From Candidatus Magasanikiibacteriota bacterium (lineage in GTDB: Bacteria; Patescibacteriota; Patescibacteriia; Magasanikbacterales; GWA2-37-8), in the NCBI GenBank assembly GCA_026396535.1, contig JAPLWP010000008.1, positions 1-21,993 on the forward strand: a DNA stretch of 21,993 nucleotides. The letters run 5' to 3'. This document shows positions 3,593 to 21,993 of this stretch, piece by piece. A program made the translations under genes and the position numbers. The first letter of the stretch is position 1. The number at the start of each line of letters is the position of its first letter. The notes beneath the pieces were generated by a model, which saw nothing but the letters and a program-made list of their open reading frames with translations, was not told the origin of the DNA and did no database searches.

Positions 3593-4213
3593 ATGCCATC
3601 CAAAAAGAAAAATAATTTTTTGCGTAAACTAATTTTCAACCTTTTAATTATTACTGATTGGGCTTTTTGTTTTGTGGCTTGGAATTTAGTCTTGGCCTGG
3701 ATACCACTGCTCTTAGCCTACTGGCTAAATTTTTATTTAGTCAAAAAAAATGTTTATTACCAGGCAGCAATCTTTCTTTTGTGGTTATTCTTTCTGCCCA
3801 ACGCCCCTTATCTTATTACGGATTTTATTCATCTTACCGTATGGTACCAGGTACCTATCTGGTATGATATTATATTATTTACCAGCTTCGCGTGGAATGG
3901 CCTGACCTTGGGATTTGTTTCTCTGTTTTTATCCCAAGAATTTTTGAAAAAGATTACTACTGCGAAAAAAAGTGCTATTTTAATAAACCTCTGCATATTT
4001 TTATCTTGTTTTGGAATATATTTCGGACGCTACATGCGTCGCAATAGTTGGGATATATTGATTCATCCTATTTTGATAGCTGGCGATTTGGCCAATACCC
4101 TTTTAACACCTAGCAATTTTATAAACATGGCCGGCATGACTCTTACTTGGTTTTTATTTTTATTTGGTGGCTATAAACTTTTTCTTCTCTTGCTAGAAAA
4201 CAAAAAATCATAG
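3593..4213 (+). CDS. DUF1361 family integral membrane protein
   Basis: A 206-residue multispanning membrane protein with about six hydrophobic segments (roughly residues 15-50 as a pair, 57-73, 85-112, 125-142, 178-200). Family-like motifs are LFFLPNAPYLITDFIHL (about 62-78), WYDIILFTSFAWNGL (about 88-102) and FGRYMRRNSWDILIHP (about 142-158), the pattern of DUF1361. No biochemical function is established for this family. It is co-transcribed with the preceding EEP gene (three-base gap). Its last codons overlap a promoter for the following gene. Confidence 0.85.
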   Translation: MPSKKKNNFLRKLIFNLLIITDWAFCFVAWNLVLAWIPLLLAYWLNFYLVKKNVYYQAAIFLLWLFFLPNAPYLITDFIHLTVWYQVPIWYDIILFTSFAWNGLTLGFVSLFLSQEFLKKITTAKKSAILINLCIFLSCFGIYFGRYMRRNSWDILIHPILIAGDLANTLLTPSNFINMAGMTLTWFLFLFGGYKLFLLLLENKKS

Positions 4214-4219
4214 TATACT
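4190..4219 (+). promoter_or_regulatory. Promoter of the GC-rich secreted-protein gene
   Basis: TTGCTA (4190-4195), an 18-base spacer and TATACT (4214-4219), lying across the end of the DUF1361 gene. The GC-rich composition starts just downstream of the -10 box. The predicted leader of about 75 bases contains a hairpin, 4241-4254 with 4260-4274 (CCAACC/GGTTGG at the top, ATCAAA/TTTGAT at the base). Confidence 0.5.
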
Positions 4220-4299
4220 AATGTTCTCGTTGGTTTCAATATCAAACTCCAACCAAGGCGGTTGGTGTTTTGATTTGACTACAAGGTCCTGGAGGATTC

Positions 4300-4677
4300 A
4301 TGCTCAAACGTTTCTTGTTCTGTATGCTGCCGGTCTGCCTGCCGCTTTCGGCCAACGAAGGCTCGATCACTTACACCACTTCCAAAGGTGCGGTCTTCTC
4401 GTGCAAGAAGCTCACCGACAACAAGCCGGACTTCCCGACCTGCGTCAGCGGTGTCGAACCGGCGAAGAAGTACGAATACCGCCGCTGGTGCGAAGGTGAA
4501 AAACGCCAAGAAGGATTGATCTACGACAGCGACCTGGGCAAGTTCCAGTGTCTGATCGATCACAACTGGTGTACATCGCAGGAAGGGAAACTCAATCCCA
4601 AGTTCTGCATCCACTACGGTGAGTGCAACATCGTCTCGGAAGTGCCCACCGACGACAAATGCTTCAACAAACACTAA
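4300..4677 (+). CDS. Secreted cysteine-rich small protein, function unknown, GC-rich foreign-looking gene
   Basis: I do not recognise the family. The 125-residue product starts with a clear signal peptide: MLKR, a hydrophobic core LFCMLPVCLPL, and a probable signal peptidase cut after SA (about residue 18). The mature part has eight cysteines spread evenly, enough for four disulfides, plus aromatic and charged residues. This suggests a small extracytoplasmic disulfide-stabilised protein. Codons end overwhelmingly in G or C, in sharp contrast to the AT-ending codons of neighbours, and a good Shine-Dalgarno GGAGG (4291-4295) precedes the ATG, whereas nearby genes lack one. The antisense frame is also long, but the codon bias, signal peptide and ribosome site all favour this strand. 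A weak hairpin at 4703-4719 follows the stop. Confidence 0.7.
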   Translation: MLKRFLFCMLPVCLPLSANEGSITYTTSKGAVFSCKKLTDNKPDFPTCVSGVEPAKKYEYRRWCEGEKRQEGLIYDSDLGKFQCLIDHNWCTSQEGKLNPKFCIHYGECNIVSEVPTDDKCFNKH

Positions 4678-4745
4678 ATTGAACATGAACAACATCCGTG
4701 CTCCGCCCTAAAAGGACGGCAGTGAGGAGGAAGAGTCATCGACCG

Positions 4746-4791
4746 CCAAATTGCTTTTTTTCTAAAAAATATTAGAAAAAAAGCAATTTGG
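4746..4791. repeat. Perfect 20-bp inverted repeat with six-base loop
   Basis: Left arm 4746-4765 (CCAAATTGCTTTTTTTCTAA) is exactly complementary to right arm 4772-4791, with loop AAAATA. It separates the GC-rich gene from the AT-rich repeat-protein gene. The T-run lies in the ascending arm, opposite to a normal intrinsic terminator, though a T-rich stretch (about 4796-4804) does follow, so it may still stop transcription. A recombination or processing role is equally open. Confidence 0.75.
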
Positions 4792-4814
4792 GATGATTTT
4801 TTATTTTATAAAAC

Positions 4815-4843
4815 TTGCTTAAAGATTCAATATCTACTAAAAT
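4815..4843 (+). promoter_or_regulatory. Promoter of the beta-flower-like gene
   Basis: TTGCTT (4815-4820), a 17-base spacer and TAAAAT (4838-4843), about 25 bases before the ATG at 4869. The region is AT-rich throughout, so chance matches are easy. Confidence 0.45.
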
Positions 4844-4868
4844 TAACTAATAAAATAATTTTAATATT

Positions 4869-5168
4869 ATGGGATATATTTATAATGCCACCTCGATTAA
4901 AATTGCCAAAATAAACGAAGAGGGCGAAGTGTATAGCACCAGCGAAAAACATTTAGGTAAAGTACACAGCGATGGAACAGTATTTGATACCAATGCCCAT
5001 AAAGTTGGACACGTAGACGGTAATGGAAAAGTGTTTGATTTAAAAAACCATATCGGCAGTACCCATAGTGATGGCGGTATTTTTGATACAAGTGGCCATC
5101 ATGTAGGTAAAGCAGAATCACCACACATTGAATTTGGGGCGGCAGCTTATTTATTACTTGTAAGATAA
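4869..5168 (+). CDS. Short tandem-repeat protein resembling the 4-fold beta-flower domain
   Basis: A 99-residue protein made of about four to five copies of a roughly 18-20 residue unit with the pattern G-x-V-F/Y-D/S-x-x-x-x-x-x-G-x-V/T-x-x-D/E-G (for example GKVHSDGTVFDTNAHKVG, then GHVDGNGKVFDLKNHIG). This period and pattern match proteins annotated as 4-fold beta-flower, small all-beta repeat proteins of unknown role. There is no signal peptide or membrane segment apart from a mildly hydrophobic end (AAAYLLLVR). Composition and codon use are AT-rich, like the core genes and unlike the two GC-rich genes beside it. No Shine-Dalgarno is present. It stands alone behind its own promoter. Confidence 0.72.
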   Translation: MGYIYNATSIKIAKINEEGEVYSTSEKHLGKVHSDGTVFDTNAHKVGHVDGNGKVFDLKNHIGSTHSDGGIFDTSGHHVGKAESPHIEFGAAAYLLLVR

Positions 5169-5246
5169 TAAAAAAAATAAATAAGATTTAAAAACTAATC
5201 CTGTTTTTTATTTAAAAAATAATAAAAAGTAACCACCCAAAAACCA

Positions 5247-5275
5247 TTGACTTTTTGCTTTTTCTATGTTACTAT
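5247..5275 (+). promoter_or_regulatory. Strong promoter of the second GC-rich gene
   Basis: TTGACT (5247-5252), a spacer of exactly 17 bases and TACTAT (5270-5275). GC-rich sequence starts at once after the -10 box. The leader of about 93 bases is bracketed by the inverted repeat GCCAGTAT (5280-5287) and ATACTGGC (5353-5360), which would close it into a stem just upstream of the ribosome site. Confidence 0.65.
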
Positions 5276-5374
5276 CCGCGCCAGTATCCATAAACGTGGC
5301 AACTTCGCCCCGTAGAGGATCAGATGTGACTGATGCGACACACTGTTCGCACATACTGGCTAGTGGAGAAAGCG

Positions 5375-5692
5375 ATGAAAAAGAATGCCCTGAACAATTT
5401 GCGCAACCTGCTCACCAACGCGCTGGCGCTCACCAACAACCCCGACGCCACGGCGGCCGAGTTGACGGAAGCGGTCCAACAGTGCGGCCAGCAGTGCGGC
5501 GAACTGGAAAGCCCGACCGATGAATTGGACGCCGATGCGCCCGAAACGACCCAGCCGGGCGATTCGAACGCGGCGACGCTGACCCAAGCGGCCATGGCGA
5601 CCAGCGGCGGCGAGAACACCGACGACCAGAGCGCGGCGCAATCCGATGCAACGGCCGAAGGCAACGCCACTCCGCAGCAGCCCGCGGTGTAG
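5375..5692 (+). CDS. Small disordered Ala/Gln/Thr/Asp-rich protein, function unknown, GC-rich foreign-looking gene
   Basis: Not recognised. The 105-residue product has a short basic, helical N-terminus (MKKNALNNLRNLLTNALAL), a central QQCGQQCGELE stretch with two cysteines, then a long low-complexity acidic tail rich in Ala, Thr, Asp, Gln and Ser, predicted disordered. The ATG at 5375 is chosen over the upstream one at 5333 because GGAG at 5365-5368 sits six bases before it and the leader stem ends at 5360. Third codon positions are almost all G or C. Long antisense frames exist, as expected in GC-rich DNA, but they lack a comparable promoter and ribosome site. The low complexity makes protein-coding status less certain than for the other genes. 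Confidence 0.55.
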   Translation: MKKNALNNLRNLLTNALALTNNPDATAAELTEAVQQCGQQCGELESPTDELDADAPETTQPGDSNAATLTQAAMATSGGENTDDQSAAQSDATAEGNATPQQPAV

Positions 5693-5721
5693 CCAGCGCA
5701 GTACGCGCCAGTCACAAAGCA

Positions 5722-5755
5722 GGTCGGCCGGGGATATCCATTCCCCCGGCCGACC
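5722..5755. terminator. GC-rich perfect hairpin after the second GC-rich gene
   Basis: GGTCGGCCGGGG (5722-5733) pairs perfectly with CCCCGGCCGACC (5744-5755) around a ten-base loop. AGC/GCT extends it after one A-A mismatch. No T-run follows directly, so it is not a classic intrinsic terminator. It could protect the 3' end or act as a terminator in a different host. Confidence 0.6.
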
Positions 5756-5798
5756 AGCTGACACATTCACATTTTACCACATCCGATTTCAAAAAATA

Positions 5799-5870: not shown

Positions 5871-6062
5871 ATGAACCTTTTTTATACTTCTCCTGGTGAC
5901 GATATAGAGGAAGACAAAGATGAAGAAAAAGACAGTTTCGAAGATCTCAAAGAAGATGAATTCGAAGACGGTCTTGGTACCGACGACTACGGTGACGGTG
6001 ACACCGACAACAGTTGGCCATCGGGTAAAAAAGATGCTGACGCCGAAGAAGAAGTAGAATAA
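5871..6062 (+). CDS. Very acidic 63-residue protein, function unknown
   Basis: Twenty-seven of 63 residues are Asp or Glu against five Lys, giving a net charge near -22. Apart from the first seven residues (MNLFYTS) there is almost no hydrophobic content, so the chain is probably disordered. A promoter of the local TTGACT-N17 type lies upstream and a strong terminator just downstream, supporting a real expressed gene. No Shine-Dalgarno is visible, as for other core genes here. The protein could be a DNA mimic, a cation buffer or a chaperone-like tail protein, but nothing in the sequence decides. It is convergent with efp. Confidence 0.65.
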   Translation: MNLFYTSPGDDIEEDKDEEKDSFEDLKEDEFEDGLGTDDYGDGDTDNSWPSGKKDADAEEEVE

Positions 6063-9117: not shown

Positions 9118-9147
9118 TTGGATGAAAAGCAAAAAATATGCTATAAT
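9118..9147 (+). promoter_or_regulatory. Extended -10 promoter of the type IV pilus operon
   Basis: TTGGAT (9118-9123), an 18-base spacer and TATAAT (9142-9147) preceded by TG one base upstream (TGCTATAAT). Transcription would start near 9154, inside the frame that runs from 9122, showing that the first residues of that frame are not translated and that the real pilB start is the ATG at 9178. Confidence 0.7.
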
Positions 9148-10519
9148 TAAACTTGCCGAATTATTTTTTGGCTATTTATGCTTACAGAAAAAACACTCAA
9201 ACAGGTACTACACTGATAGCAAAAGTCTGGAGGAAATTTTGGTTTCCAGTAATATTATTGAAGAATCTGTACTATATAAAGGTGTTGGCGAATTCTTAAA
9301 CACTCCTTTCACCACTCTCAAAGGCAAAACTATCAACAAAGATACTCTGGAAATTATTCCAAGCCTAGTAGCCGGCACTCATCAAGTAGTAGCTTTTGAA
9401 AAAAACGAAACAGAGTTGCTTTTGGCCATGACCGATCCGACTGATATTCAAACTATTGAATTTTTGCATAGAAAAACCGGCCTAACTCCCCAAGTTTACA
9501 TTACTACCCCAAGTGACCTCAAAGACGCCTTGCACAAATACCACGCCGAGCTAAAAGATGAATTTTCTGCTGTATCTAGCAAAAAAAACCCTACCGACGG
9601 CGACCTTAAAAAGGCCGGAGAAGAACTGTCCATCATTAAGATGACCAACAGTATCCTAGAGCATGCCGTATACGAGGGTGCTTCTGATATTCATATCGAA
9701 CCTGAAGAAAAAGACGTGACTATCCGCTACCGTATCGACGGCATTCTTAAACCAGTGATGAATTTGCCAAAAAACGTCCAAAACGGCCTAACGGCTCGCA
9801 TAAAAATCTTGGCCAACCTTAAGCTGGACGAACACATGATACCCCAAGACGGCCGTTTTAAGATCCAAATTCAGGATGAACAGATGGCTTTTCGTGTTTC
9901 GGTATTACCAGTCTATGACGGCGAAAAAATAGTAATGCGCTTATTGCACGAAGGTGCCAAACCACTCACCCTAGACCAGCTTGGATTCCTAGAAAGTGCC
10001 AGAGCTAAACTAGAAAATGCTATCAAAAAACCTCACGGTATGATTCTAGTTACCGGACCAACCGGATCGGGTAAAACCACCACTCTATATTCCGTACTTG
10101 GGATTTTAAACCAGCCAGGAGTAAATATTTCTACCGTAGAAGACCCTATTGAATACCGCGTAGCTGGAGTAAACCAAAGCCAGATGAATGCCAAAGTTGG
10201 TTTCACTTTTGCTAGCGGGTTGCGCGCACTACTACGCCAAGATCCAAATATTATTATGGTCGGTGAAATCCGTGACCAAGAAACCGCCGAAATTTCCATC
10301 AATGCCGCGATGACCGGTCACTTAGTGCTATCCACTCTCCATACCAATGATGCTCCAACCACTCTACCTCGCTTGGTAGATATGGGCGTGCCACCATTTT
10401 TAGTAGCTTATACTACCAATATTATTATTGCCCAGCGTCTAGTGCGCCGCATCTGCGAATTTTGTAAAAAAGAATTTACTCTAGAGGGGGCCGCACTGGA
10501 TGAACTCGTCCCGCGGTGA
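9122..10519 (+). CDS. pilB: Type IV pilus assembly ATPase PilB, main fragment (frame-shifted at both ends)
   Basis: PilB/GspE-type hexameric ATPase that drives pilus extension. Seen: N-terminal GspE domain (SKSLEEILVSSNIIEES onwards), Walker A GPTGSGKT (about residue 313), Asp box ASDIHIEPE (about 187), Walker B IMVGEIRD (about 380), His box HLVLSTLHTND and the first half of the zinc motif, CEFC. The frame from 9122 contains the promoter, so its first 19 or so residues are an artefact. A typical start, MLTEKTLKQVL, is at 9178 in another frame and runs into a stop at 9214; joining it to SKSLEEIL needs a frame change near 9205-9217. The 3' end stops at 10519 just before the second zinc-motif half, which continues in another frame. 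The gene is therefore broken twice as given. Confidence 0.88.
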   Translation: MKSKKYAIIKLAELFFGYLCLQKKHSNRYYTDSKSLEEILVSSNIIEESVLYKGVGEFLNTPFTTLKGKTINKDTLEIIPSLVAGTHQVVAFEKNETELLLAMTDPTDIQTIEFLHRKTGLTPQVYITTPSDLKDALHKYHAELKDEFSAVSSKKNPTDGDLKKAGEELSIIKMTNSILEHAVYEGASDIHIEPEEKDVTIRYRIDGILKPVMNLPKNVQNGLTARIKILANLKLDEHMIPQDGRFKIQIQDEQMAFRVSVLPVYDGEKIVMRLLHEGAKPLTLDQLGFLESARAKLENAIKKPHGMILVTGPTGSGKTTTLYSVLGILNQPGVNISTVEDPIEYRVAGVNQSQMNAKVGFTFASGLRALLRQDPNIIMVGEIRDQETAEISINAAMTGHLVLSTLHTNDAPTTLPRLVDMGVPPFLVAYTTNIIIAQRLVRRICEFCKKEFTLEGAALDELVPR

Positions 10520-10748
10520 AGGCTGCAATCGCTGTGGCCAAACTGGCTACAAAGGCCGCCAAGGTATTTATGAAGTGATGGAAATAGACGAGGGTTTGGT
10601 GAAAAAAATAAATGAACGCGCCACCAGTGACGAAATAAAAAAATATGCTCGCGAACATGGCATGCTTACTATGCTTGAAGATGGTTTGATAAAAGCCAAA
10701 TTGGGCGTTACTAGTATCGCTGAAATTTTACGCGTTACCAAAGAATAA
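10500..10748 (+). CDS. pilB: PilB C-terminal fragment
   Basis: This frame carries the missing end of PilB: RGEGCNRCGQTGYKGRQGIYEVMEI, the second CxxC of the tetracysteine zinc motif plus the conserved GYKGRxGIYEV strand, then the C-terminal helices to residue ILRVTKE. The true fusion point lies near 10506-10516. The upstream frame ends DELVPR, and a one-base shift at the CCCGCGG run would join LV to RGEGC. The distance between the two CxxC pairs is then roughly 15 residues shorter than usual, which suggests lost DNA rather than a simple one-base change. The ATG at 10500 is not a real start. Confidence 0.85.
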   Translation: MNSSRGEGCNRCGQTGYKGRQGIYEVMEIDEGLVKKINERATSDEIKKYAREHGMLTMLEDGLIKAKLGVTSIAEILRVTKE

Positions 10749-11870: not shown

Positions 11871-12491
11871 ATGTTTGGTAACAATCCTTTTGAAGAAGCT
11901 TTCGGCTTGGACATCGGAGACCTCTCACTCAAGTTGGTCCAGGTTAGCATTGCCAAAACTCATAAAGATAAAACAATTTATAAAATAAAAAATTCTCGTC
12001 AAATTTCTTTACCGGCTGGCTATATTGTAAATGGTGAAATTCAACAACCGGAAATGGTTCGCAAAAAACTACTCCAGCTTTTAGATAAGGTAGATTATGG
12101 CAAAAAAATTACTTCGCCTTGGGTGGTGGCGGATCTGCCCGAACCAAAAACCTTCCTCACCTCTATTGAATTTGATATGCCGGCCAGTCAAATCACCAAA
12201 GAAGATGTGGAATTTCAATGTCAAAAACATCTACCTTTTGATCTTGCTAATGCCTACCTGGATTGGCAAATTATTCCTCAGATGGATTCACAAAAAACCA
12301 CCAGAGTTTTAATTGGAGCGGTAGAAAAAATAGCGGCTGATTCTTACACCTACTTACTTCAAAGCGCCAATCTACAGCCGTTGGCGCCACTCGCTCCGCT
12401 ATCATTATTTATGACAATGGCGGCGTGCGCTTTAGCACCAGTATTGATTTTTCAGGCGAACTTATCAATACCGCTTTGGCCCAAAGTTTAA
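11871..12491 (+). CDS. pilM: Pilus assembly actin-like protein PilM, N-terminal fragment
   Basis: The actin/FtsA-like cytoplasmic protein that links PilB/PilC to PilN-PilO. The N-terminal lobe is clear: FGLDIGDLSLKLVQVS (phosphate-1 loop, residues 11-26) followed by the family block VVADLPEPKTFLTSIEFDMP and EDVEFQCQKHLPFDL. The proper sequence ends after SANLQPLA near 12387. The rest of this frame (PLAPLSLFMTM onwards) is out-of-frame read-through of the second half. The true continuation, ATRSAIIIYDNGGVRFS, is in the next frame from about 12386, overlapping the same bases. About 30 residues expected between LQPLA and GATRS are missing, so this is an out-of-frame deletion. Confidence 0.87.
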   Translation: MFGNNPFEEAFGLDIGDLSLKLVQVSIAKTHKDKTIYKIKNSRQISLPAGYIVNGEIQQPEMVRKKLLQLLDKVDYGKKITSPWVVADLPEPKTFLTSIEFDMPASQITKEDVEFQCQKHLPFDLANAYLDWQIIPQMDSQKTTRVLIGAVEKIAADSYTYLLQSANLQPLAPLAPLSLFMTMAACALAPVLIFQANLSIPLWPKV

Positions 12492-12871
12492 AAATTGACT
12501 ATGAAAAAATCGAAGAAATGAAAATTAAAAATGGATTAAATTATATCAAAGAATTTCCAAACTATCTCAAAATTGTTGACGAACTTACGGAAAGCCTGGT
12601 AATACAAATAAAAAAAGCATTTGATTATTACGAAGATCATTACCCAAACCCTCAAGTAATAGAAAAGATCATTCTATGTGGCGGTATGGCGGAAATGGAA
12701 AACTTACGCGACACTTTGGTCCGTCGTTTAGAAATTCCTTGCGAATTCGCCGATCCTTTCCAAAATATTTCCGTCAAGAATTTAACAGCGGAAAATAAAA
12801 AAACTTCCCTGACTATGATTTCCGCTCTTGGCCTAGCCATGCGTGCTACCGCCAATCCTTACAATAGTTAA
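12386..12871 (+). CDS. pilM: PilM, C-terminal fragment
   Basis: This frame holds the second half of PilM: ATRSAIIIYDNGGVRFSTSI (phosphate-2 loop of the actin fold, from 12386), the helical region ELINTALAQSLKIDYEKIEE, and the adenosine-loop segment ILCGGMAEMENLRDTLVRRL, ending in the typical NPY motif (ATANPYNS). A GTG at 12425 gives an open frame but falls in the middle of a conserved strand, so it is not the true start. Together with the fragment from 11871 this would be a PilM of normal architecture, lacking an internal piece. The pilN gene begins two bases downstream. Confidence 0.86.
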   Translation, partial: ATRSAIIIYDNGGVRFSTSIDFSGELINTALAQSLKIDYEKIEEMKIKNGLNYIKEFPNYLKIVDELTESLVIQIKKAFDYYEDHYPNPQVIEKIILCGGMAEMENLRDTLVRRLEIPCEFADPFQNISVKNLTAENKKTSLTMISALGLAMRATANPYNS

Positions 12872-16845: not shown

Positions 16846-19800
16846 CTAAGGAGCAGCCAAAGGCGCAGGAGCTTCAGAAACAGGGGCCAAGACCGGAGCA
16901 GGAGCTAGTGATGGATTTTGTGCTGGCGCTGATTCTACTACCGGCTCAGATGGAGTCACTATGGGAGCTGCACTTTCCAATACTGAAGTAGTAATTCCCC
17001 CTGTGGAACTCGAGCTTGCCGCAGGAACAGTTTCAGTAGTAGCACTACCTGAATTTAAATCCGGGGAAGAGTTTCCACTTTGACTATCAATTATATTATT
17101 TAAAATTTCCGGACTTACCGTTTGGTCCGTAGGTTTTCTGGTAGCCACCACAATCCAGTCAAAAGTTGCATTACTATGACCATTGTCCAATTCTTTTACT
17201 GTAAATCCTTGTGCGCTTTTTTCACTAACATAAATACCTTTACCTTCACCTGAAGTCAAAGTTATATTAATTTTAATTGGCTGTTGTTGATCAATTACTT
17301 CTTGCACATATTGATCAAACACAATTTTTACTTCACCCGATACCATTTGAGAAGAGCTGGAGAAGACAAATTCAGAATTTGGAGACTGCATTGCGTACAT
17401 ATCTCTATCTCCACCCGATGTACTTACACGAGTAATAAATCTACCCTGTTCATCAATTAACCACTTGTTATTTTTACCATATATCGAAGCAACATTTAGC
17501 AATTGATTGCCTTGTAAATTTAAATCACCACCACTATAAGTTAGATTACCACCAACATTTTGAACATTCAAATTATTATTTGATTGCAAACTTATTCCCT
17601 GAGCATTGGCCAATTTTTGCAAATCATTTTTTACGACTGTCAGAGCACTAGCGGCGTTATTTATCCAACCGGTTTTTACTAAGCCCATTATTTTACCAAC
17701 AGTACCGTCTGGCATATCTTCCAAAGCTAAACCCACCACACTCACTGTGCGCACAGCCTCATCTTTTTGATTATCATAGCGCATGGCATAGCCTGGCAAA
17801 GAAGCAGTTACCAATAAATCACCTTTTTTAATTGGACCATTTTCGTTACTTACTTTTACCGGTACACGACCAACCATAGCCATCAAAGCAGTGTTTTCTG
17901 TTTTACCATCACCTACTACGATAGTTGGATTAGTAGAAATCACACCAGCCACTGTTTCGCTATAAGCACCATTACTACGGCGATAAGTATCAATACTATT
18001 TTGATCAACTACCACCACATCACCAGGCTCCACACTATCATCCAGAGAAATATCTACACGTTCGGCCAAGTCACCAGGAGTTCCCGGAGTACCAACCGTA
18101 GCGGAAGAAGCCTTGAAAGTTCCTACCGCATTTACATTACCATTACTACTGACAGAAAATACCGGCGTACCACCCGCGCGTAAAGATAATAAATATTTAG
18201 TGGAAGAAGAAGGAGTATTAATAGCATCAAAAATAAAAGCATTATTAGCTGAGCTGGTAACAGAAGTTTTAAAGATTGTAGTGGTAGAAAAACTCAAAGT
18301 ATTTGTAACCATACCAGACATCGCAAAATCGCCATTTAACAATAAACCACCAGTTCCTACATTCAATCCATTTCTTACATATAGATTATTTCCAATATCC
18401 GCGTTTTCCCAAATTGTAAGATCATTGGTGGAGACATTACCAATATCCGCCGAACTAATATCCGCACCTTTTATATCCATAATTTTGAAACCCGCGGTTC
18501 CATTGGCCACATAAGCGTATTTACCAATTACCTTCACCGGACCACCTTCACCACTAATTGGATATGAACCTATAAGAGATCCACTGTTGGATATATCAAA
18601 AATATAAAAAGTTGAAGTATCAGTAATATAAGCATATTTTCCAGAAACATACACACCTTCAGCCGGACCATTTGTATTCATAACAAAAGAATTCAACGGG
18701 CTGGCAGGCGAAGAAATATTAATAGCAGTTACCGACTTACCACCAGTACTGGCCACATAAGCAAATCTTCCAGAAACATAAACATCACTAGAATTAACAC
18801 CTGTGTTTGTCGTAGTTGTTAATATTGGATTTTTAGCATCACTTATATTCACAATGGCCAACCCTCCACCACCAGCAGTGGCCACATAAGCGTTTTTACC
18901 GTTTACATACACCCTAACTGGTGCATAGGTAGTAGTGAGAGTCGATATTAGAAGAGGCCTGCTTGGGTCTGAAACATCAATTGTTAAAAATCCATTAGAT
19001 CCGGTTTCGTCGGCTACATAAGCGTATTTTCCAGAAACATACACACCGGTCGAAGCACCTGCAGTATCGTAAGAACCAACTAACGTTGGACTGGACGGAT
19101 TAGTAATATCAAAAATTTCTAAACCAGAAGTACCGTCAGCTACATAGGCATATCTGCCAGAAATCTTTACATCGTACACAGTACCGGCGGTATCATAGAA
19201 TCCAATTAGAACAGGACTAGACACTGTAGTAATATCAAAAATTTCTAAACCAGAAGTACCGTCAGCTACATAGGCATATCTGCCAGAAACATCCACGGCA
19301 TACACAGTGCCAGTGGTATCGTAATTTCCAGCTGAAGTAGGATGCACAGGACTATCCACCCTCAAAGTACCATCATACACATACAACTTCGACTGAAGAG
19401 AGGCGGCAGCACCAATTCCTATATTTCCAGTTCCATTTATTGATAAAATATTTGGTGTACCGGTAGCGGCAATAGTAAAAATATTAGCTGTCGAAGTATT
19501 GCCCGTGAAGAGACTAAAAGGACCGTTAGATAAAATTCCTCCAGCACCTACAGTTAAAGAATTTTTAATACTTAAATTATTACCAACATTAGCATCTTCC
19601 CAAACAGTTAAATCGTTGGTGGCGACATTACCAATATCCGCCGAACTAATATCCGCACCATTTATATTTATCACAGAAAAACCCATCTCACCTGCTACCG
19701 TTGTCTTGCCGGCAACATAAGCATTATTACCAACCACTTGTAAAGTTTTAATTTGCCCGATACTTCCCGTATTAAGAGAAGTTTTTACTGTAGGATTGGT

Positions 19801-21993
19801 CGGGTCTGATATATCTACTACAGTTAGAAGACCCCAACTATTACCACTTCCACCAACAGTATATAAATAATTACCAGATATAAATAAATTTGTGGAACCA
19901 AAGAAAGCGGAAAAATCATTTACCGAACCTACCACCGTCGGAGAAGATGGATTCGAGACATCTACTACTTTTAACACCGATCCATTTCCTTCCACATAAT
20001 AGGCATATCTTCCAGAAACTGTGATATTAGTAGTCAGGGTAGCCCCCAAGCTTAGCGAACCACCGACAACCGGACTCAACGGATTCGAAATATCTACTAC
20101 GACAAATTTCCCTGAAACCGCCCCATTATATAAATATAAATAATTACCAAAAACTTTTATTTTTGTTGGCGAATCTAATTTATGACTATTTTCTGTATAA
20201 TTAGTTACGACTGACATTGCCAATGGATTGGAAATGTCTACCACCATCAAGCCATTATACGTTGCGTTTACAATCGAAGCATTACCAATAAAAGCATAAT
20301 TTCCAGATACATCAAAAGAAGGGTAGAAGCTTGAGTCAGTTATACTACCCACTACTGCTGGACTATACGGATTCGAAATATCAATTGCAACTAATTCTAC
20401 TGAGCCCAAACTACCTGCCAAAACATAAGCATATTTTCCAGAAATTTTTACTCCTAAATTTAAATTCGTATTTAATAAACTAGAACTAAGGGTACTAATT
20501 AAAACAGGAGAAGACTTTTTAGAAACATCAAATACTAGAAATTTTCCTTCTCCGCTAACATAACCATACTTTCCAGAAATATAGATACCCCCCACAGATG
20601 ACACACTGGCCACACTTACACTACCTAATAAGGTTGGGTTTATCGGATTATCTACTAATAATTCCCCTCCGTTTATATGTAATTTTGCCGCAGGAGCATT
20701 TGTTCCTAAACCCAATCTTTTATTTACACTATCCCAATAAAATTCTGAAGTATTCTGAGTTAATTTTGTGCCATCAGAAAATAACACACCTCCATTTGAG
20801 AAAGTAGTTGTGCCAGTACCGCCCAGACTAACATCCAAGCTACTAGCAGACGACCAAACACCGCCAGAAATTATTGCTACCCCAGACCACGCACTACTAT
20901 CCTGACCCGTACCGCCATATACTGAGGAAATAGCATTACCATGCCAAGTGCCAGAAGTAATAGCACCATTTATAGAAATAGTTCCGTCAGCATTTACCGC
21001 CAAAATTGAACTAGTGGTATTAGTACCTGCAGAAAAAATTGTACTAGTACTAACCGCAGAAGACACACTGATTGCCAAAGCACCATTAGATAAAAGTCCA
21101 CCCTGCCCTAAATTTAAACCACCATGTACCGATAGACTATTACCAATATTTACATTTTCATAAACAGATAACTCATTTGTAGCAATATTACCAATATTTG
21201 CACTACTTATATCTGCTCCCAAAAGATTGATTATACTAAAGGTACCGGCATTACTATCCCCTGTAATATAAGCATACTTCCCATCTATCGCTACTCCATA
21301 GGGACTAGACATCAAAGAATTATACACTGACCCCACTATTACGGGATTTGTAGAGCTACTAACATCTACTACATTAATACCAATAGGGGAGTTTGTCTGA
21401 ACAAAAACGTACTTACCAGACATCGCAACACTAGTAACACTACCCACAGTTTTAGAACCTACCTCAATTGGGTTGGAAGGATCGGAAACATCTATTACTA
21501 CCAATTTAGAGGAATTCCTAGCGCCATAATACACATACTTCCCCGATAGCGCTAAACCAATACCATAATCCATGTTTGCAGTGTGTATCGATCCAACTAT
21601 AGAAGGATTATTTTTATCAGCAATGCTTATAATCACTAGCTTAGCGCTGCTCTGGTCAATCGCATAAACATAGCCTCCACGTACATACAAAGCATCTGGA
21701 AAAGTCAATGTACTAGTACTATAAACTGTCTGAATTAAATTTGGAGAAGTTGGGTTGGAAATATCTACGATACTTAAACCACTTAAAGATCCGTAGTATA
21801 AATATTTTCCTTCAACAAAAATACTATTACCAAAATTAAAATTACCACTACTAGTATTATATACTAATGTAGGATTCGAAGGATTGGAAATATCTATAAT
21901 TGTAAAACCAGCATAGGCATTGGAAATATATAAATATTTTCCAGATAAAAACATTCCATTCACTGAGCTAACACTAGCATCCACAAGATGACC
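16846..21993 (-). CDS. Giant surface protein with three LVIVD-repeat beta-propellers, 5' partial
   Basis: The frame is open to the window edge, so the 1715 residues seen are the C-terminal part; the GTG at 21984 is internal. Numbering from the edge: block 1 (1-255, six repeats seen), block 2 (about 450-778, seven repeats) and block 3 (about 889-1174, seven repeats), all of LVIVD type with the pattern SGKYAYVAD...L-x-I/V-x-DISNPSSPTLVGS and a period near 42. Seven repeats fit a seven-bladed beta-propeller. Each block ends in GADISSADIGN plus a tail-fibre-like linker (NDLTIWENADIGNNL, YGGTG and GGTGTTTFSNGG motifs). Residues 1306-1448 (DLAERVDISLDDSVEPGDVV, GRVPVKVSNENGPIKKGDLL) resemble the C-terminal modules of phage-tail-like surface proteins, possibly related to Peptidase_G2. 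A beta domain follows, with IDEQGRF and FDWIVVATRK, then a Pro/Ala-rich tail from 1631. It probably mediates adhesion outside the cell. The signal peptide is outside the window. Confidence 0.85.
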   Translation of the reverse strand, partial: GHLVDASVSSVNGMFLSGKYLYISNAYAGFTIIDISNPSNPTLVYNTSSGNFNFGNSIFVEGKYLYYGSLSGLSIVDISNPTSPNLIQTVYSTSTLTFPDALYVRGGYVYAIDQSSAKLVIISIADKNNPSIVGSIHTANMDYGIGLALSGKYVYYGARNSSKLVVIDVSDPSNPIEVGSKTVGSVTSVAMSGKYVFVQTNSPIGINVVDVSSSTNPVIVGSVYNSLMSSPYGVAIDGKYAYITGDSNAGTFSIINLLGADISSANIGNIATNELSVYENVNIGNSLSVHGGLNLGQGGLLSNGALAISVSSAVSTSTIFSAGTNTTSSILAVNADGTISINGAITSGTWHGNAISSVYGGTGQDSSAWSGVAIISGGVWSSASSLDVSLGGTGTTTFSNGGVLFSDGTKLTQNTSEFYWDSVNKRLGLGTNAPAAKLHINGGELLVDNPINPTLLGSVSVASVSSVGGIYISGKYGYVSGEGKFLVFDVSKKSSPVLISTLSSSLLNTNLNLGVKISGKYAYVLAGSLGSVELVAIDISNPYSPAVVGSITDSSFYPSFDVSGNYAFIGNASIVNATYNGLMVVDISNPLAMSVVTNYTENSHKLDSPTKIKVFGNYLYLYNGAVSGKFVVVDISNPLSPVVGGSLSLGATLTTNITVSGRYAYYVEGNGSVLKVVDVSNPSSPTVVGSVNDFSAFFGSTNLFISGNYLYTVGGSGNSWGLLTVVDISDPTNPTVKTSLNTGSIGQIKTLQVVGNNAYVAGKTTVAGEMGFSVININGADISSADIGNVATNDLTVWEDANVGNNLSIKNSLTVGAGGILSNGPFSLFTGNTSTANIFTIAATGTPNILSINGTGNIGIGAAASLQSKLYVYDGTLRVDSPVHPTSAGNYDTTGTVYAVDVSGRYAYVADGTSGLEIFDITTVSSPVLIGFYDTAGTVYDVKISGRYAYVADGTSGLEIFDITNPSSPTLVGSYDTAGASTGVYVSGKYAYVADETGSNGFLTIDVSDPSRPLLISTLTTTYAPVRVYVNGKNAYVATAGGGGLAIVNISDAKNPILTTTTNTGVNSSDVYVSGRFAYVASTGGKSVTAINISSPASPLNSFVMNTNGPAEGVYVSGKYAYITDTSTFYIFDISNSGSLIGSYPISGEGGPVKVIGKYAYVANGTAGFKIMDIKGADISSADIGNVSTNDLTIWENADIGNNLYVRNGLNVGTGGLLLNGDFAMSGMVTNTLSFSTTTIFKTSVTSSANNAFIFDAINTPSSSTKYLLSLRAGGTPVFSVSSNGNVNAVGTFKASSATVGTPGTPGDLAERVDISLDDSVEPGDVVVVDQNSIDTYRRSNGAYSETVAGVISTNPTIVVGDGKTENTALMAMVGRVPVKVSNENGPIKKGDLLVTASLPGYAMRYDNQKDEAVRTVSVVGLALEDMPDGTVGKIMGLVKTGWINNAASALTVVKNDLQKLANAQGISLQSNNNLNVQNVGGNLTYSGGDLNLQGNQLLNVASIYGKNNKWLIDEQGRFITRVSTSGGDRDMYAMQSPNSEFVFSSSSQMVSGEVKIVFDQYVQEVIDQQQPIKINITLTSGEGKGIYVSEKSAQGFTVKELDNGHSNATFDWIVVATRKPTDQTVSPEILNNIIDSQSGNSSPDLNSGSATTETVPAASSSSTGGITTSVLESAAPIVTPSEPVVESAPAQNPSLAPAPVLAPVSEAPAPLAAP
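18433..19659 (-). repeat. Dispersed identical 36-base segments encoding the GADISSADIGNV linker
   Basis: The same 36 bases occur at 18433-18468 and 19624-19659, with a diverged third copy near 21182-21220. Each marks the end of a propeller block. This indicates that whole propeller-plus-linker modules were duplicated. Confidence 0.85.
19101..19289 (-). repeat. Near-tandem DNA repeat within the giant gene (63 identical bases, 126-base spacing)
   Basis: Bases 19101-19163 recur exactly at 19227-19289. The offset of 126 bases is one 42-residue repeat unit, and both copies encode GRYAYVADGTSGLEIFDIT. Such identity at DNA level shows recent duplication or conversion of a propeller blade. Confidence 0.9.

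Follow-up and report, generated by a model that had tools for sequence, protein, structure and literature searches.

A scattered family of GC-rich single-gene units in AT-rich Magasanikbacteria

The window analysed here, 21,993 nucleotides long, makes up contig C88 of a draft genome, G000, which spans 870 kb and is 88% complete. The genome is that of an ultra-small bacterium from an uncultured genus of Magasanikbacteria, a lineage within the Candidate Phyla Radiation, and the window carries two GC-rich patches, each built around one small gene, which we call c1 and c2. These two genes are members of a large family of GC-rich units scattered over Magasanikbacteria genomes. Many units share elements at their 3' ends, the family reaches across the genus and into other genera and families, and at conserved loci the high GC content is kept between species. 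In the typical unit, an AT-rich promoter of native appearance is followed by a GC-rich leader with predicted structure, then by a single small gene behind a strong Shine–Dalgarno (SD) sequence, and last by a 3' hairpin. Tentatively, we favour the reading that the units are directed at a host and stay GC-rich so as to work in a partner cell that is diderm and itself GC-rich.

Two GC-rich units in an AT-rich window

A first-pass annotation had described two GC-rich patches separated by AT-rich DNA, and both window GC content and GC3 (the GC fraction at third codon positions) bear this out. Specifically, GC content is 51.5% in the c1 patch (4221-4740) and 63.6% in the c2 patch (5278-5760), 29.7% between them (4741-5275), and 38.0% on average in 300-base windows outside the patches (standard deviation 4.1, maximum 51.7). 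GC3 is 0.76 in the c1 coding sequence and 0.83 in that of c2, compared with about 0.37 in native genes; against 153 native genes of 80-160 amino acids from G004, a sister species in the same genus (mean 0.387, standard deviation 0.078), the z-scores are 4.8 and 5.7. These values, together with the GC3 tail in G004 described below, rule out chance composition for the patches and the units. As had also been claimed, a hairpin ends each patch (Table 1) and a −10-like box precedes each. That the GC-rich DNA begins just after the box holds only roughly for these two: a likelihood changepoint places the AT-to-GC switch 27 bases after the end of the −10 box for c1 and 47 bases before it for c2.

A family scattered over the chromosome

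Two further GC-rich genes in G000 (L002) came to light through a weak match to the 3' end of c1, and a pattern taken from this end matches 3 of 29 genomes, all of the same genus. In G004, of which 742 kb were read, the GC3 of 671 gene calls has a main mode near 0.375 and a separate tail of 25 genes at 0.6 or above, a list that includes some wrong-strand picks. The units listed there after inspection number 26; they are dispersed among native genes and in places form tandem arrays (L039, L040, L024). The first description of discrete small cassettes with a common architecture is thereby upheld, and its insertion hotspot is not. GC-rich islands are also present in smaller samples of G001, G003 and G023, and some occur in G009 on a background of 46-47% GC; none was seen in 72 kb of G006 or in 100 kb of G036. 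For the comparisons below, units were selected by composition, with strands and starts set partly by hand (34 units, then 30 more, 64 in total), and the native genes all come from G004.

A terminator shared by unrelated genes

Nine 3' hairpins are built alike: the outer stem covaries, a bulge interrupts one side, and the AT-rich inner stem is conserved. The stem is followed by a T-run, as in an intrinsic terminator, and 14 of 24 pairs are changed on both sides among the nine sequences. A covariance model, R1, built from nine such hairpins of the genus matches all five genus genomes (best E-value 1e-13 or better in each) and 30 of 57 genomes at E-values up to 0.1; within the window, the c1 hairpin is the sole match at that threshold. 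Mean GC around the 31 genus matches is 0.561 upstream and 0.368 downstream, and upstream GC is at least 0.48 at 30 of the 31, compared with 5.6% of random places. This test is partly circular, as nine of the 31 matches had built the model. Among the 22 matches not used in the model, 21 have GC-rich DNA directly upstream and L175 fails (0.47); two that pass, L160 and L164, are close to a contig end and have 84 and 170 bases before them, with no gene visible at L160. Twenty genus regions were taken, mostly by rank, several further genus matches being left out. Beyond the genus, in further genera and families of its order, 11 of 16 R1 matches end a GC-rich stretch when read by eye in 150-base bins, and L132, L137, L141, L142 and L147 have no clear GC-rich DNA upstream. 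Instead of R1, c2 and many other units end in different, GC-rich hairpins.

High GC content is kept at conserved loci

In G004, the one relative with this locus in which presence and absence were compared, the gene order is DUF1361, c1, the beta-flower gene and the acidic gene. The c2 gene is missing there, and 81 AT-rich bases between the beta-flower and acidic genes align with G000 DNA just downstream of c2. Presence and absence at the locus, one of the earlier expectations, is found for c2 but not for c1. The c1 gene is present in 2 of 57 genomes, G000 and G004, at the same locus; its G004 orthologue is 47% identical in amino acid sequence and has a GC3 of 0.83, and the promoter stretch TAGTATACT and the start of the leader can be aligned between the two. 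Proteins flanking c1 are 65-83% identical between the two genomes and their four-fold degenerate sites 33-50% identical, which is near saturation. Synonymous divergence (dS) of the flanks is 1.0-3.6 by NG86 where computable, and by YN00 0.87 (DUF1361) and 1.13 (ZnuB-like); for the c1 pair, nonsynonymous divergence (dN) is 0.48 and dS 1.18. We infer that a gene acquired once should, under the mutation bias of the genome, by now lie much closer to the native GC3 range of 0.33-0.37. Because a GC-rich c1 orthologue occupies the same locus across near-saturated flanks, c1 does not look like a recent arrival.

Nor do positional conservation elsewhere and the recurrence of R1 with GC-rich upstream DNA across the genus and beyond support the proposal of recent arrivals. 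Two-gene arrays at L002 (G000) and L024 (G004) lie upstream of the same two genes, which are 82.7% identical over 323 amino acids and 92.9% identical over 140. Within the arrays, one pair of unit genes is 39% identical and the other pair has no detectable similarity.

Individual gene families extend this picture. A 2-oxoglutarate (2OG) oxygenase is matched in 5 of 57 genomes. All five genes are GC-rich (GC3 0.66-0.81) within GC-poorer flanks, and for two of them identity to the query is no more than 24-28%. The G001/G004 pair (dN 0.12, dS 0.63) is under purifying selection and is too close to test amelioration; its GC3 is 0.66 in G001 and 0.78 in G004, where native GC3 is 0.28 and 0.37. The sole phosphoribosyl pyrophosphate (PRPP) synthetase of G004 is a unit with GC3 0.80, and among close homologues from other genera (39-50% identity) GC3 ranges over 0.28-0.62 and tracks the flanks. 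Some distant phosphoribosyltransferase relatives, at L114, L116 and L120, are also GC-rich amid poorer flanks.

Assembly chimerism is rejected for c1 and the family, with loci conserved in separately assembled species; for c2 it is conceivable. The barrel protein of G004 (L026, below), on a 32-kb contig, has a 100% identical copy on a contig of 437 kb.

Composition and signals of the whole transcript

The GC-rich character of the units covers the entire transcript. Leader GC is 0.475 in units and 0.305 in native genes, and GC of the 3' untranslated region (UTR) is 0.556 and 0.316, respectively. Since the unit UTRs are GC-rich too, codon selection alone does not explain the composition. Additionally, the first and second codon positions are GC-richer (0.59/0.44 in units, 0.47/0.34 in native genes), cysteine makes up 3.05% of unit residues compared with 0.85%, and the stop codon usage is inverted: TAA ends 8 of 57 units and 470 of 627 native genes (p = 6e-20), TAG or TGA 49 of 57 and 157 of 627. 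With the best start allowed on both sides, an SD match of at least 4 nucleotides precedes 34 of 34 units and 261 of 627 native genes, and one of at least 5 precedes 22 of 34 and 79 of 627; in a narrower window, 60 of 64 units reach 4 nucleotides, two of the four below being truncated genes. The anti-SD of the 16S rRNA is intact. N-terminal hydrophobic segments are marginally enriched (21 of 57 units, 81 of 342 native genes; p = 0.048).

Promoter-like sites scoring at least 5 are present at 34 of 58 units, 19 of them within −15 to +6 of the AT-to-GC switch, compared with 14 and 3 for reversed hexamers. At any score the clustering is weak (28 versus 16 of 58), and the c1 and c2 promoters fall outside this range.

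RNA elements lie near several units. An adenosylcobalamin riboswitch precedes the unit at L163 for a lipoprotein with a Tat (twin-arginine translocation)-like signal, and an S-adenosylmethionine riboswitch lies about 150 bases before the L050 unit. In the L039 array, three hammerhead-like ribozymes stand between or after the genes, one of which (type III) scores 53.4 bits, above the Rfam cut-off of 48.5, and the other two 37.7 and 33.2 bits, below it. As a separate observation, a boxA-like word, GTTCTTTACA, occurs just upstream of cassettes or arrays at L039:2498, L040:5084/4210/2731, L043:16843 and L053:3602, which are six of its eight occurrences and might point to antitermination. Near a cassette in G001, L176:2564-2659 matches the DUF3800-V RNA (RF02964, 73.8 bits).

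Products encoded by the units

Recognisable products include the 2OG-Fe(II) oxygenase, PRPP synthetase, NUDIX, Cys-rich repeat proteins, lipoproteins and small membrane proteins; some lipoproteins in G023 may resemble those of Myxococcota. A PurH-like domain (IMP-cyclohydrolase-like, L075:339-944) matches the phage family phrog_30501 (6e-60), for which PHROGs lists function unknown. A member of the uridine/purine phosphorylase superfamily, below NCBIfam cut-offs, and a methyltransferase-like protein, also below cut-off, are further candidates, and many units have no family match. Nine of ten unit proteins lack a PHROG match, and the c1 and c2 proteins have neither a Pfam nor a PHROGs match.

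The product of L026:9275-9769 is predicted to be an eight-strand barrel, the five models having pLDDT values of 86.5, 85.8, 85.7, 66.8 and 55.4. All 18 PDB matches at E-values up to 0.001 are outer-membrane proteins with modest template modelling (TM) scores (0.36-0.47 on the query), and NspA gives TM scores of 0.61/0.64 (E-value 0.0011). The barrel and its seven relatives, which carry no taxon labels, all end in F. The models fit a putative outer-membrane beta-barrel with a C-terminal aromatic residue. Omp85/BamA and TatC were each found in 0 of 29 genomes, with controls matched in 7 and 11 of 14; LspA was found in 25 of 29, so that as a test of lipoprotein maturation it does not discriminate.

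Origin and role of the units

The GC-rich features span the whole transcript, including UTR parts common to unrelated genes, and donor origin alone therefore does not readily explain them. The products suit a role at the surface of, or inside, a diderm cell of high GC content, which favours genes aimed at a host and matched to that partner. Cys-rich secreted proteins, lipoproteins, a predicted outer-membrane barrel, and nucleotide-metabolism and oxygenase enzymes resembling the auxiliary metabolic genes (AMGs) of phages appear to be directed at the host, and many of them seem to evolve fast. Also in favour are the predicted outer-membrane barrel and the Tat-like lipoprotein signal, found despite the missing BamA and TatC. 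In this proposal, the whole transcript with its UTRs would be kept GC-rich as a match to the partner, either through expression in the partner after transfer of RNA or DNA, or through long co-evolution with the partner's gene pool; the cargo would be protein, RNA or DNA. In a stronger and unlikely form, the bacterium would make mRNAs or gene cassettes for another cell: the promoters would be the bacterium's own, the transcript (leader, SD, codons, stop and 3' UTR) would be host-matched, and after delivery into the GC-rich diderm host the products (outer-membrane barrel, Tat-exported and other lipoproteins, nucleotide enzymes) could mature there.

Several observations weigh against host-directed genes. 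At four-fold sites, c1 is identical at 10 of 16 between G000 and G004, above its flanks though in a small sample; a GC-restricted alphabet raises chance identity at these sites, and c1 may have undergone less synonymous change than its flanks, or recombination. Unit GC3 spreads from 0.55 to 0.91, as expected from mixed donors or partial amelioration. The Watson–Crick cognate fraction with the cell's own tRNAs (from 82% of the genome) is 0.71 in units and 0.49 in native genes, and since unit codons fit this tRNA set, translation at home is possible. The Tat motif occurs in 1 of 64 units (L163), with a weak Pfam match (E-value 0.009, below cut-off), and that unit has no homologue in the other 56 genomes. 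The barrel could leave through Sec and then insert into the partner's outer membrane. The c2 unit lacks the R1 terminator, its membership resting on composition, SD and anatomy. Finally, a route or machinery that would deliver RNA or DNA is hypothetical, as is the partner cell; VirB4-like AAA_10 matches, present in 18 of 19 genomes with four above cut-off, are weak and lack specificity.

Magasanikbacteria belong to class ABY1. Two freshwater ABY1 families are reported as free-living or on lake snow (PMC9166423), which calls for caution on a fixed host. Type IV secretion systems are described as widespread in Patescibacteria and mostly without relaxase (PMC12102498); such a system would be a possible delivery machine for host-directed cargo, any link to the units being hypothetical.

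Serial horizontal acquisition is possible but less likely. Here, GC-rich genes of a partner or prey would be captured repeatedly into local expression sites by cells that presumably take up DNA, turnover keeping the set GC-rich. A GC-rich host or neighbour, as first suggested, is a conceivable source. The orphan-rich, patchy content agrees with such a process (c1 in two genomes; c2 without a database homologue and missing at the G004 site), as do the positional replacement between the L002 and L024 arrays, the spread of GC3, the lower GC3 of the oxygenase in the more AT-rich G001 and the possibly Myxococcota-like lipoproteins of G023. It fits less well with c1 being GC-rich at one locus across species despite near-saturated synonymous sites in the flanks, and the 3' UTR motif and terminator common to unrelated genes look lineage-born, though the motif itself is GC-rich. 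Close homologues in a GC-rich donor did not appear: at the sensitivity of a word-based search, the c1 and c2 proteins have no relative besides themselves among 5.8 billion proteins. That scan covered c1, c2 and the L026 barrel among the units, and donor homologues are hardly sampled; a scan of named genomes with two short patterns gave 39 pattern matches, of which the three confirmed loci were the query genes themselves. In the set of loci covered by tblastn, c2 had no match.

An internal regulon, in which high GC would give the RNAs stability, structure or very efficient translation within the Magasanikbacteria cell itself, is unlikely. The fit to the cell's own tRNAs would suit this, as would the shift of EF-Tu (named by eye) and S18 to C-ending codons (S18 GC3 0.54), and the hammerhead ribozymes and riboswitches near units show control at the RNA level. 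However, GC3 is 0.40 in EF-Tu and 0.43 in L11, and a regulon leaves unexplained the TAG/TGA stops, the GC excess at the first two codon positions, and the occurrence of a barrel and a Tat-like signal where neither BamA nor TatC was found. With EF-Tu at this value and the UTRs and stops shifted, codon optimisation alone is no explanation, and the view of the units as highly expressed own genes is weakened.

Least probable is an origin as phage-derived morons or as an RNA-copied cassette element, with single insertions running from transcription start to terminator: the predicted moron-like anatomy, the clustering of promoter-like sites at the AT-to-GC switch, the PurH-like phage-family domain and the AMG-like functions speak for it, but in the window, the locus examined for phage genes, the flanks are housekeeping genes, scans of viral contigs with the oxygenase, the barrel and c1 gave no relatives, PHROG matches are lacking for nine of ten proteins, and the c1 promoter is conserved together with its unit.

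Comparison with known systems

Phage morons and AMGs resemble the units in being single genes with their own promoter and terminator, foreign composition and nucleotide-metabolism enzymes; the units differ in lying on a bacterial chromosome, in the window among housekeeping neighbours, in their common lineage-specific terminator and in lacking viral-contig relatives in the three scans. Integron cassettes are likewise small one-gene pieces ending in a bulged hairpin and sometimes arrayed, whereas each unit has a promoter to itself, the hairpin is followed by a T-run, and the units are dispersed. In agreement with the first-pass annotation, no transposase or integrase is among the Pfam matches of the unit proteins scanned, no search having been aimed at integrases or attC sites. 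Genomic islands and ordinary recent horizontal transfer share the compositional anomaly, but some unit loci are conserved with GC kept, and the units have common UTR elements and strong SD sequences. We regard the family, in which a foreign-looking composition is maintained and RNA ends are shared, as outside the known kinds compared; serial acquisition, if correct, would make it a form of one of them. The literature listings and starts of abstracts searched, a scope that left bioRxiv preprints aside, contain no description of such cassettes, and PMC6851277 and PMC10746230 concern other subjects in the parts seen.

For the question of how host-dependent Patescibacteria influence their partners, the units offer a signature, readable from DNA alone, of genes that are candidates for a host-directed role (in G004, 25 of 671 gene calls), along with a covariance model that finds more. 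If their composition mirrors the partner, it would provide a means of inferring hosts, and if nucleic acid is delivered, this would be a new type of cell-cell interaction.

Features and neighbours of the two units

The features of both units are collected in Table 1. The c1 promoter overlaps the end of the DUF1361 gene, and in c2 the start codon with SD support is the ATG at 5375. Genes flanking the patches in the window include DUF1361, EF-P and S18 (Pfam), which are housekeeping genes.

Table 1. Coordinates of the c1 and c2 units and of the gene between them.
Feature	Position	Strand	Basis or remark
c1 promoter (TTGCTA 4190-4195, 18-base spacer, TATACT 4214-4219)	4190-4219	+	Sequence reading
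c1 leader, structured, SD GGAGG at its end	4221-4299	+	Fold −21.1 kcal/mol, without shuffle control
c1 gene, 125 aa, Cys-rich, N-terminal hydrophobic segment	4300-4677	+	GC3 0.76
c1 3' UTR motif, CGTGCTCCGCC-hairpin-GGAGG	4697-4730	+	Common to unrelated genes
c1 bulged terminator hairpin (model R1)	4736-4797	+	Covarying outer stem, one-sided bulge, conserved AT-rich inner stem, T-run
Native AT-rich 5-fold beta-flower protein, between the units and outside both	4869-5168	+	Pfam PF21785; 83% identity in G004
c2 promoter (TTGACT 5247-5252, 17-base spacer, TACTAT 5270-5275)	5247-5275	+	Sequence reading; top promoter-like site locally, score 7.1
c2 leader, structured, GC-rich, SD GGAG	5276-5374	+	Fold −28.0 kcal/mol, without shuffle control
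c2 gene, 105-aa Ala/Gln/Thr/Asp-rich orphan	5375-5692	+	GC3 0.83
c2 3' hairpin, GC-rich, not R1-type	5722-5755	+	Fold

Across the G004 loci L016-L055, an AT-rich sequence is present in about ten copies (with words such as GCATAATTGGCTAT) and is possibly a repeat gene or a mobile repeat. Group I intron matches in the same genome lie at L049:16688-16874 and L042:18324-18512, one within a 23S rRNA match and one beside tRNA genes.

Elsewhere in the window, positions 5871-6062 encode a conserved acidic protein of 63 amino acids, 79% identical in G004 and without a Pfam family. Pilus-type genes (an ATPase and a PilM-like gene, named by eye) at 9122-10748 and 11871-12871 are each split across overlapping frames, by frameshift or assembly error. 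On the minus strand, 16846-21984 encodes a repeat-rich protein of 1712 amino acids, surface-like by eye, with its end near the contig end.

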